64,000 nt of DNA from Sphingomonas sp. J315 (GTDB lineage Bacteria; Pseudomonadota; Alphaproteobacteria; Sphingomonadales; Sphingomonadaceae): NCBI RefSeq assembly GCF_024666595.1, contig NZ_CP088296.1, forward strand, positions 2,108,001 through 2,172,000, written 5' to 3'. Positions 33,375-63,247 of the stretch are shown here, one piece after another (position 1 is the first letter of the stretch; every line of letters starts with the position of its first letter). A program made the position numbers and the translations under genes. Under the pieces are notes generated by a model. That model saw only the letters and a program-made list of their open reading frames with translations, ran no database searches and was not told where the DNA came from.

Positions 33375-34427
33375 TCACGCGCGGGTCAGTTGACGCCAGT
33401 TATTCTGGAACAGGTCGGCGCAGGTATCTCGTTCCTCGAACGCGCGACACGGCGCGCCTTGCTCGTGGAGCACGCGCTTTTGCAACAGATGAGCCAGATC
33501 CGCGCGAACCGTTTCTCTGTCTGTTTGGCTCACGCCGCGAGACGTAAAGAAGACACGTTTCGCATTTGAAACCTGTCCGGTATCAAGGATATCGAGATTC
33601 TGGGGGAGCCAGCCGAACCCGAGGAACACCAGTGTTTCTGCCGCTACAATACGGTTGCGGATCGTCTCAACGGTGGCGCTGTCGGCTGACTCGGTGAAGG
33701 TCTTTATTCCTTCGGCAAGCGCAGGAAAATCGGCACCATAATCTAGGCCAAACGGCACATCTCCTCCCTTCCAAGGCGGCGATCCAACGGAACCGTAGAC
33801 GTGCAGAACCTCCAGCTTCGATGCTATTTCGGCCGCTCTGTTTTCTGGCAAACCAAAAGTCTGCTTCAGCCATTCGAAAGCAAAAGTCTCGATACAGCGG
33901 TCATAGTTGAAAGTGATAAAGCTTACGTTGTCGAATATCGAATCGACGTTCTCCAGCGTGACATTCTGAGTCAGTAAGCGACCGAAGTGGACGTACCACG
34001 ACGCATCATATTTCTCATTTCCGCCAAAGCTGAATACGATATCGTCGCGCGTTTGTGTTGGAAGCTTAAATTTTGAGAAAAATGCCGAGTTACGTTCAGC
34101 TTCCAAGATTGCGATTACTATCGCCATTTTTCCTACCGCAATCATCGCTTCATTACCGCGATGAATATCAAGATAGGTGTCTATTGAGGCGACGTTGACG
34201 AGGCCCAGACGAAGCTGCTGTAGGGCGATGTGCACATGCTGCCACAGGGACTGATTGTTCTCACACTTTCGGTGAACCGCAAGTTCAAAGTTGCGATTTG
34301 AGAACCCCGAGTTGCGATCAAAGTAAGTCATTTCGATGATGCGGTCGCGAAGTGCGTTTCCTATCGGGAGGCCGATTTCACAGCTTGCGCCAGCGCCAAC
34401 AACGAAAACAGTTTTAGGTGAGAACAT
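33375..34427 (-). CDS. SIR2-like domain protein, possible anti-phage NADase
   Basis: A 350-residue single-gene SIR2-like protein. The NAD-binding start is VVGAGASCEIGLPIGNALRD (about 10-29), with FITFNYDRCIE (about 170-180), the catalytic-type histidine in VLHVYGS (H209) and LGFGW near 275. No zinc cysteines of deacetylase sirtuins are seen, which matches the SIR2-like family used as NAD-consuming effectors in phage defence. There is no transmembrane segment. The DNA is clearly less GC-rich than its neighbours, suggesting horizontal acquisition. Flanking genes are a toxin remnant and a DUF6891 gene. The defence role is inference. Confidence 0.78.
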   Translation of the reverse strand: MFSPKTVFVVGAGASCEIGLPIGNALRDRIIEMTYFDRNSGFSNRNFELAVHRKCENNQSLWQHVHIALQQLRLGLVNVASIDTYLDIHRGNEAMIAVGKMAIVIAILEAERNSAFFSKFKLPTQTRDDIVFSFGGNEKYDASWYVHFGRLLTQNVTLENVDSIFDNVSFITFNYDRCIETFAFEWLKQTFGLPENRAAEIASKLEVLHVYGSVGSPPWKGGDVPFGLDYGADFPALAEGIKTFTESADSATVETIRNRIVAAETLVFLGFGWLPQNLDILDTGQVSNAKRVFFTSRGVSQTDRETVRADLAHLLQKRVLHEQGAPCRAFEERDTCADLFQNNWRQLTRA

Positions 34428-35335: not shown

Positions 35336-35506
35336 AGCTACTCCTCGGATCGAAACGCGACGCTATCACGTCCCAAACCAACCGGAAATCGGGTCTGTAG
35401 CATGCGCGCCTGACGGATGCCCCCACGCCACACCCCACCCAAAATCCATCCAACACGCCCCGCCACCCGCTGTCCTACACGCCCGCAATCCGCTTCATCC
35501 TGCCGG

Positions 35507-35815
35507 ATGACTCAGCAACCCCCACTCGCCCGTGCGCACTGGACCCCGGCCAAACAGCGCATCTTCCTCGCCGCCCTTGTCGAAACCGGCAGCATCGCCC
35601 GCGCCGCCCGTGCCGCGGGCATGTCGCGGTCCAGCGCGCATGCGCTGCGCAACCGCCTCACCGGCACGCCCTTCGACCATGCATGGGCCCGCGCGCTCAG
35701 GCTCCACGCCGCGCGGCTCGCCGATCCCTTCGGCCCTGATCCACTCGCCCCGCGTGATCCCGTTGCGCCGCGTGCGCCCAGACCCGCACCCGTCGCGCCG
35801 TCGTCGCTTCGCTGA
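35507..35815 (+). CDS. Small helix-turn-helix protein, copy 1 of a paralogous pair
   Basis: A 102-residue protein with one helix-turn-helix (about 27-50; ARAAGMSRSSAHALRNRL), a short helical extension (FDHAWARALRLHAARLADPF) and a Pro/Ala-rich tail. No sensor domain, signal or membrane segment. Its core (HWTPA to DPLAPR) matches copy 2 at 62536 in 66 of 73 residues. The 3' end of the gene runs into an 11-bp periodic GTCGC array that continues for about 140 bp past the stop, as it does for copy 2. It may bind that array; this is untested. Likely called a hypothetical or LysR-like protein by similarity. Confidence 0.8.
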   Translation: MTQQPPLARAHWTPAKQRIFLAALVETGSIARAARAAGMSRSSAHALRNRLTGTPFDHAWARALRLHAARLADPFGPDPLAPRDPVAPRAPRPAPVAPSSLR

Positions 35816-35956
35816 TGCCGCGCCGTCGCGTCCTGTCGCCAAAGCGTCGCGTGCCCGTCGCCCGATGTTCAGATCGCGTCGCGACACAGTCGGGCATGCG
35901 TCGCGCAATCGTCGCGCACCCGTCGCGCCCGTGTCGCGCACCTGTCGCGTCGCGGG
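35781..35956 (+). repeat. 11-bp periodic tandem array (GTCGCGCACCC-like), copy 1
   Basis: GTCGC or close variants start at 35792, 35803, 35825, 35835, 35846, 35857, 35878, 35889 (GTCGG), 35900, 35911, 35922, 35933 and 35944. Spacings are 11, 22, 10, 11, 11, 21, 11, 11, 11, 11, 11 and 11. About 15 degenerate units therefore sit on one face of the helix. The period is not a codon multiple and the array continues beyond the stop codon. The rest of the 290-bp gap to 36105 holds no gene I can support. Confidence 0.85.
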
Positions 35957-36105
35957 CGCTTCGTGGGTGCCATCCCGTCCTGTCGGCCCGCAACCCGCAT
36001 GTTTTCGTCAGCTTCGCCGGGCGGTGTCAGGCGCAAATCCCTGTCCCCGGAAGCGAAGCGCCGCCGCGCTGCCGCGATCTGCGGCGCGCGCGACGGCGTT
36101 GCGGG

Positions 36106-62296: not shown

Positions 62297-62497
62297 ATGG
62301 CGCATGTTACCTTCACTTGTGAAGCCTGCGGAAGCAAGCTCGTTACCCGGGACGCTTGGGCGGAGTGGAACGAGGACACACAGAATTGGGTGTTGGGCGC
62401 TGCCTTTGACTACACGTTCTGCCACACGTGCGAAAAAGAGACTCGCCTTGTCGAGCAGAAACTTCCTAAACCCCCCTTTCCTACACGAACCAAATAG
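62297..62497 (+). CDS. Small zinc-ribbon-like protein (66 aa)
   Basis: A 66-residue protein with two CxxC pairs (CEACG near 9-12 and CHTCEKE near 42-45), the usual spacing of a four-cysteine zinc ribbon, around WAEWNEDTQNWVLGAAFDYT. Function unknown. It starts 107 bp after the divergent winged-helix gene and is followed by a 7-bp stem hairpin (CGACTCC/GGAGTCG, 62509-62530) that may terminate it. Confidence 0.65.
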   Translation: MAHVTFTCEACGSKLVTRDAWAEWNEDTQNWVLGAAFDYTFCHTCEKETRLVEQKLPKPPFPTRTK

Positions 62498-62535
62498 GTC
62501 AACTGAATCGACTCCAACCAACCGGAGTCGAGTCG

Positions 62536-62847
62536 ATGCGCGACCAACCCACACCCGCCGCGCCGCCAGCGCGCAACCACTGGACCCCCGCGCGTCAGCG
62601 CATCTTCCTCACCGCGCTCGTCGAAACCGGCAGCATCGCCCGCGCCGCGCGCGCCGCCGGCATGTCGCGCTCCAGCGCCCATGCGCTGCGCAACCGCCTG
62701 ACCGGCACGCCGTTCGACCATCACTGGAGCCACGCACTCAAACTCCACGCCGCACGGCTCGCCGATCCCTTCGCCCCCGATCCGCTCGCCCCGCGCGAAC
62801 CCGCCACAGCCCGTAGCGCCCCCGTCGCCCCGGCGTCGCGTCCATGA
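62536..62847 (+). CDS. Small helix-turn-helix protein, copy 2 of a paralogous pair
   Basis: A 103-residue single-HTH protein, paralogue of the one at 35507: the HTH ARAAGMSRSSAHALRNRL is identical, and 66 of 73 core residues match. The N-terminal lead and Pro/Ala tail differ. As in copy 1, the gene's 3' end merges into an 11-bp periodic GTCGC array. Start MRDQPTPAAP follows the hairpin CGACTCC/GGAGTCG. Likely DNA-binding; target unproven. Confidence 0.8.
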   Translation: MRDQPTPAAPPARNHWTPARQRIFLTALVETGSIARAARAAGMSRSSAHALRNRLTGTPFDHHWSHALKLHAARLADPFAPDPLAPREPATARSAPVAPASRP

Positions 62848-62965
62848 CGCGGCGCGGTCGCCAACCCGTCCAGACCCGGTGTCAGCCCGTCGCGCCGCTG
62901 TCGCGCACCTGTCACGTCGGAGTCGCGCCACCGTCACCCCACGGGTGTCAGCGTGTCGCAAACCC
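62813..62965 (+). repeat. 11-bp periodic tandem array (GTCGC type), copy 2
   Basis: GTCGC or close variants begin at 62813 (GTAGC), 62824, 62835, 62846 (GACGC), 62857, 62868 (GTCCA), 62889, 62900, 62911 (GTCAC), 62922, 62933 (GTCAC) and 62955. Spacings are 11 or a multiple within 1 bp. Same period, unit and position as the array after copy 1. The 536-bp gap 62848-63383 contains this array and a possible promoter, with no other gene I can support. Confidence 0.85.
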
Positions 62966-63247
62966 GCCCGCTTGCCGTCCCGAACCGGTCGCTTCTCCCG
63001 TACATACCCCCATGTTTGTCAGCATCGTCGGACAGCGCCCGTCGCCGAAGTCGAATGGTCATTCACCTTTTCGCGACCGCCCCATACCACGCCCTGGCGG
63101 GGTGGTTCGATCGGCTATGGCGGATGACGTTACGGAAACCGGCTTCCTTTCGCTCGCAGCACAATATGGTGTCCGCGACGACCCACGACCCGCCCCGCAC
63201 GTGCGACAGACCGCGTGGTTAATTGGCCGATCCGCAAAAGCCCCGGC

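Follow-up and report, generated by a model that had tools for sequence, protein, structure and literature searches.

A small HTH gene followed by a phased GTCGC array

The DNA analyzed here (the window) is a stretch of 64,000 nucleotides from Sphingomonas sp. J315 (G000:C1:2108001-2172000), whose genome, G000, is a single contig of 3.93 Mb. It carries two loci in which a small helix-turn-helix (HTH) gene is followed by an array of GTCGC units in an 11-base-pair (bp) phase. At locus A, the HTH gene (35507..35815, plus strand) encodes 102 amino acids with a single HTH, and the array (35792..35953, plus strand) comprises 13 exact units starting at 35792, 35803, 35825, 35835, 35846, 35857, 35878, 35900, 35911, 35922, 35933, 35944, and 35949, with spacings of 11, 22, 10, 11, 11, 21, 22, 11, 11, 11, 11, and 5 bp. 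The first two units lie in the last codons of the gene and the remaining 11 beyond its stop codon. An extra GTCGC at 35623 is located within the gene, separate from the array, and the opposite-strand word GCGAC occurs once within 35507-35956. The initial annotation had described this gene with its own array of about 15 units, partly inside the 3' end; gene, phase, and overlap were confirmed, whereas a count of 15 is reached only by including degenerate units.

The identity of segment 35781-35960 with itself at lag 11 was 0.544, versus 0.310 +/- 0.039 (maximum 0.450) in 5000 dinucleotide shuffles (z ~6), in agreement with the period originally claimed. Locus A also gave the highest lag-11 value of the 64 kb (0.562; best value elsewhere, with both loci excluded, 0.42), and none of the lags from 10 to 15 exceeded it, the next being lag 12 (0.485). 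The genome is GC-rich and rich in open reading frames (ORFs), and other segments show coding-type peaks at lag 12 or lag 15, as would be expected if coding bias or composition had produced the period. However, 11 is not a codon multiple, the period persists past the stop codon, as had been argued at the outset, and the shuffles together with the reversed-pattern controls described below refute such an artefact, to which we give virtually no credence.

Organization of the elements

The second locus (62476-63032) has the same layout. HTH gene B (62536..62847, plus strand) encodes 103 amino acids, its product is 82% identical to that of gene A, and array B (62824..62992, plus strand) is again in 11-bp phase. 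The elements begin with a 5' promoter-like box and a start codon, after which come the HTH gene (in some copies only), the strand-polar array, and the 3' box. The flanking boxes and the gene-less copies elsewhere in the chromosome are absent from the initial annotation. The 5' box of element A (class 1, CTGTCCTACA, 35470..35479, plus strand) lies 37 bp before the ATG, and a similar box is found 31-39 bp before the start codon in other copies; that of element B (CTTTCCTACA, 62476..62485, plus strand) lies 60 bp before the ATG. A -10-like CATCCT (35496..35501, plus strand) ends five bases before the ATG of element A, with TATCCT or CATCCT equally placed in other copies. From this arrangement, the 5' box may be an upstream promoter element, and we propose that transcription of gene A has a leaderless start. 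The 3' boxes of element A (TTTTCGTCAGCTTCGCCGGG, 36002..36021, plus strand) and element B (TGTTTGTCAGCATCGTCGGA, 63013..63032, plus strand) were located by a genome pattern search allowing 2 mismatches, the former also through a per-genome consensus.

Two classes of 5' box were distinguished: class 1 resembles CTTTCCTACA, and class 2 reads cCTTCCAATGTWGGAttT..TCTGaTCTATCCTg...GATG (35 distinct sequences from both genera, Sphingomonas and Sphingobium). All 13 loci of the source chromosome have a 5' box ahead of the array, as do 42 of the 43 examined across four genomes (L142 is the exception; L132 and L158 are counted with the box described below), with GTCGC always on the same strand. ATG begins the gene in HTH-bearing copies, and a purine-TG is retained at this place in most gene-less ones. 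A clear 3' box follows the array in 11/13 source loci; at L049 the fit is poor, and at L056 the array enters an ispD-like gene. The 3' box consensus, taken as the best fit to a hand-entered consensus and hence biased toward it, was TCGTCAGCTTCGTCGGA in G000 and G162, CTGTCAACTTCGTCAACCG in G176, and cgTGAACTTCGTgAacCgg in G191; in Sphingobium it was ACAACGGTGTGAACTTCG. The 3' box thus changes by lineage, and the array core does likewise, more slowly. The distance from the last exact unit to the 3' box was exactly 30 or 41 bp in 27/43 loci, a count made with orthologous loci taken separately and with no chance control.

In the elements beside a uvrB-like gene in L132 and L158, the 5' box is replaced by a GTTC-N7-GTTC box (GTTCTTTATTTGTTC), which we take to be LexA-type, and the array and 3' box are kept; the promoter class therefore varies among elements while the other parts stay. 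In three elements (L049, L063, and L151), the 5' box is followed by GCTCTTTGA, presumably resembling the rRNA boxA. L049 and L063 precede rho- and rhlE-like genes, respectively; these names, like uvrB, thiD, and ispD throughout, were read from the sequence by eye and not by family search.

Distribution of the arrays in the source chromosome

At least 13 array loci are present in the source chromosome (L046-L056 and the two window loci), 11 of them without an HTH gene. The set was obtained from a search for three phased units, reading of the places found, a 3'-box search, and a check of its extra matches; it is a lower bound among the two-mismatch places listed, and lone unit pairs outside the 13 loci are not included. 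Close homologues of the HTH protein occur in this chromosome only at the two window loci. Predominantly gene-less arrays were foreseen neither by a partition system of the ParR/parC type nor by a self-limiting operator, the two options put forward in the initial annotation.

Three further loci (L060, L062, and L063) possess 5' and 3' boxes with the array absent, and L061, before a uvrB-like gene, retains the 3' box alone, located behind other genes. In L061 (1100-2600; G000:C1 ~3374900-3376400), the uvrB-side array of G191 and G162 is missing, and its place is held by two ORFs, the first with LysM and Endonuclea_NS_2 domains and the other with no Pfam match. Both ORFs sit behind a GTTC-N7-GTTC box, which we assume to be LexA-like, and the 3' box is retained at their end. 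L057-L059 were dropped as chance matches. The genome pattern AATGTTGGATTTNNTTCTGATCTAC gave no match, probably because of varying spacing. Rfam returned only one tRNA and below-threshold chance matches for 11 of the 13 array loci, and nothing for the two in the window.

The 11-bp period in other genomes

The presence of an 11-bp period behind homologous HTH genes had been set beforehand as the test on which the initial proposal would stand or fall. It was evaluated in a 260-bp region extending from 30 bp before to 230 bp after the stop codon. Among close homologues, period 11 was the best in 18/18 parsed loci (20 tried, of which L206 and L215 carry the same protein), 16 of them with z > 3; the lowest values were 3.0 (L166) and 2.2 (L167). 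The two unparsed loci showed near-11 units in a fit that presupposes that spacing. For Sphingobium, 30 loci were fetched, some from species already represented in the close-homologue set, and 29 were parsed; 11 was the best period in 28 of them, 25 with z > 3, and L244 was the exception. Of the 50 loci tried for the distant HTH relatives, 30 were parsed, four of which represent repeated fetches of the same loci; period 11 was the best in 2, and z exceeded 3 in one of these.

Within Sphingobium, HTH matches at E <= 1e-13 were obtained in 41 of 94 genomes, and the weakest of these matches belong to the wider superfamily. A search tolerating up to 2 mismatches located 11-19 matches to the 3' box in each of five Sphingobium genomes (control 0) and none in the sixth, G480 (control 1). 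When 30 of the 74 places were read, 25 had a best period of 11 upstream and 5 had an HTH gene; of the 25 places lacking the gene, 20 had a best period of 11. At L285, the match apparently lies inside a coding gene, so not every match represents an element.

Exact triplets of phased units numbered 25 in G000, 25 in G162, 52 in G176, and 29 in G191, and the reversed-pattern control was 0 in each. Across 61 related genomes of the same genus, whose counts are not independent, 146 exact triplets (control 1) fall in the 8 genomes with a close homologue (E < 1e-28) and 15 (control 15) in the 53 without one. G202, where an array is present and the close homologue absent, accounts for five of these 15; within the homologue-bearing group, a single triplet occurs in G153 and two occur in G174. 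A single-gene comparison places G000, G191, G162, G176, and G202 close together (89-96%), all others being at <= 82%. Arrays of this kind are linked to one HTH family.

Phase and core conservation of the arrays

Phase was examined in 43 arrays of G000, G162, G176, and G191, with G176 represented by 10 of its loci. Adjacent exact units were separated by 11 bp in 191 cases, 22 bp in 54, and 33 bp in 14, with a best period of 10.92. One-base spacing errors comprised 24 shortenings, spread over 18 loci and 14 locus groups, and 0 lengthenings. Slips in the shortening direction only are consistent with helix phasing, the sites lying on one face of B-DNA. Half-phase spacings of 5 bp (33 times) and 6 bp (23 times) also occurred, as did a few others, and the six-base spacers were non-random, GCAGGT, GCCGGT, GTCGGT, GAACCC, and GCACCT recurring. 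In L140 (G197), near-identical tandem units of GTCGCGCGGGG give the array the appearance of a fresh expansion by duplication.

Over 17 orthologous pairs, 660 of 731 GTCGC core positions were identical (90%), compared with 1768/2660 (67%) in the spacers and 2492/3566 in the flanks; in these figures some loci are used twice, gaps are excluded, and the aligner may favor repeats. In the five pairs with a gap-free array alignment, the cores were identical at 220/245 positions, versus 407/572 for the spacers. The phase, the conservation of the cores, and the linkage to the HTH gene together favor a DNA site for the HTH protein.

The strand polarity behind a promoter-like box also fits an array acting in the transcript, that is, a short transcription unit whose repeated GUCGC leader would control termination or translation, for example in the manner of a Rho-type or coupling device. 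Three further features point in the same direction: a purine-TG found at offset 38 in 29 of the 35 distinct class 2 sequences, an ATGA overlap with the downstream gene in 6/6 ispD/thiD-type loci, and the positions before rho- and rhlE-like genes, although the rhlE-side element has no array. The polarity and the ATGA overlaps keep such a transcript-level role viable. Folding of the array RNAs, however, yielded no structure signal (median fold z ~-0.2; 4/43 below -2 and 9 above +1), no Rfam family falls on the elements, and the downward-only slips suit B-DNA. In several copies (L046, L138, L144, and L151), the ORF ends before the array, and control through the transcript leaves the tie to one HTH family unexplained. 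We consider this explanation unlikely. A conserved peptide was rejected as a general explanation: ORFs often cross the array, but their frame at the 3' box is inconstant and several close early.

Inheritance and movement of the elements

Comparison of flanks revealed positions shared between species, such as L056/L124/L156, L051/L127/L159, L053/L126/L148, and L050/L128/L160; the remaining loci had no partner among the loci fetched. One gap between convergent genes holds the element in one orientation in G000, G191, G162, and G176 and in the inverted orientation in G174, with GGCGC/GTCGC units (orientation and units read by eye). The same gap in G201, a genome without the HTH gene, is ~20 bp long and empty. 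At the partner gene, no phased array was found in the 8 HTH-less genomes that have it within 1500 bp (30 loci read). The inverted copy and the empty gap therefore indicate that elements moved in the past, and many positions have been inherited in close species.

Such movement, the many gene-less derivatives, the variable copy number, and the arrays not common to all species (among the loci fetched) would also suit mobile or selfish repeats of old origin, derived from the HTH-bearing copy, resembling miniature inverted-repeat transposable elements (MITEs), and kept by inertia. Repetitive extragenic palindromic sequences, bacterial interspersed mosaic elements, and MITEs occur in many copies in intergenic gaps. 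The dispersal is alike, but here the array is phased and head to tail, some copies bear an HTH gene, and many positions are conserved; this comparison was made without an inverted-repeat search of the element ends. Moreover, the elements read contain no transposase, HTH-bearing elements hold a single ORF family, many orthologous positions are shared, the cores stay at 90% while spacers drift, and no plasmid or phage homologue reached E <= 1e-3 (one query). Selfish repeats appear rather unlikely.

The HTH protein and comparison with known systems

No Pfam or NCBIfam model reached its cutoff with proteins A and B. Several homologues are named 'LysR family transcriptional regulator' in databases; this identity was rejected, as PF00126 scored 20.7 bits against a cutoff of 26.6 and 102 amino acids are too short for the effector domain. 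Of 7994 sequences scored, 778 were relatives at E <= 1e-5, a figure that pools close and distant ones. The structure model consists of helices at residues 14-27, 30-36, 41-50, and 55-72 with zero strands. Its confidence is high across residues 11-70 (block predicted local distance difference test, pLDDT, 93-96), and order ends near residue 72-80, the tail having a block pLDDT of 45-57. The predicted fold is Myb/small-terminase-like. The best PDB sequence match had E 0.36, and Foldseek with the model returned nothing at E <= 0.001.

The direct neighbors of locus A encode a DUF6891 protein and a short-chain dehydrogenase; farther out are a SRAP gene and one gene without a match. The likeness to ParR/parC suggested initially held for the layout only. 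ParR/parC pairs a gene for a small DNA-binding protein with head-to-tail repeats of 10-11 bp that vary between plasmid families, and ParR of R1 requires at least two 11-bp repeats (PMC9426499). Direct repeats of this kind near such a gene are also found here. In contrast to the ribbon-helix-helix ParR, the HTH protein is all-helical in the model; and whereas ParR/parC has a ParM partner and one plasmid site, the arrays occupy a dozen mostly gene-less chromosomal sites, with no ParM among the 4 neighbors scanned (no genome-wide ParM search was made). A tblastn search of 72,556 plasmid records with the HTH protein likewise gave nothing at E <= 1e-3 (one query). A partition locus is accordingly very improbable.

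The SF6 small terminase domain has been reported to bind DNA without sequence preference. Compared with the SPP1/SF6 small terminases and their pac sites, the ordered part of the HTH protein appears too short for the ring-forming core, no terminase occurs among the 4 neighbors scanned at locus A (large terminase was not searched genome-wide), and a single query of the phage records gave no homologue at E <= 1e-3. PhoB-type direct-repeat operators also have head-to-tail sites one helical turn apart; the spacing is alike, but those operators comprise two or a few units and work with a response regulator of the winged-HTH type, whereas the arrays here have a dozen or more units.

Proposed array system

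We consider it somewhat probable that these features reflect a protein-DNA array system in the chromosomes of Sphingomonas, Sphingobium, and relatives. In this model, a small HTH protein would be expressed from a promoter that is conserved and probably leaderless, and would bind the 11-bp units head to tail, one per helical turn, stacking along one face of the DNA. Its sites would comprise the array directly behind its gene and about a dozen intergenic arrays that lack the gene. The predicted binding behind its own gene would probably limit its own transcription, and the array there may be a self-limiting operator, as the initial annotation had suggested. The 3' box, often at a fixed distance from the array, may serve as a second site to close or anchor the complex. 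The gene-less arrays could then act as distributed nucleoprotein sites, either as local roadblocks or insulators or in chromosome organization.

A more specific form of this proposal, to which we give a fairly low probability, is that of chromosome marking: a Myb-/small-terminase-like HTH protein would coat the phased arrays of a dozen inherited chromosomal positions, and protein, core, and 3' box would recode together by lineage. Each lineage would thereby possess a private array code, like a dispersed centromere or a heterochromatin nucleator.

Among the papers listed on sphingomonad repeats, promoters, and the nucleoid, none describes such arrays. If the protein binds them, this would be an undescribed chromosomal protein-DNA array system in sphingomonads and a natural experiment in which the helical-phase rule stays constant while the sequence code shifts by lineage. 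It would allow a direct test of tandem HTH stacking on DNA and of protein-site co-evolution, would give access to the effect of a dozen conserved gene-less arrays on transcription or chromosome shape, and would lend meaning to a protein family so far named by default.

Additional observations on the genome

The contig ends (G000:C1:1-20000 and 3902000-3929032; L064-L066) are 99.8-99.9% identical over the compared stretches of ~10 kb and ~6 kb, whose offsets are nearly equal, and ~34 kb at the ends is probably an untrimmed circular overlap. A repeat of ~0.84 kb lies inside this overlap. In the window, a minus-strand gene at 33375-34427 encodes 350 amino acids starting MFSPKTVFVVGAGASCEIGLP; it has no Pfam match at E <= 0.01, and we take it to be SIR2-like. 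The stretch around it appears less GC-rich.
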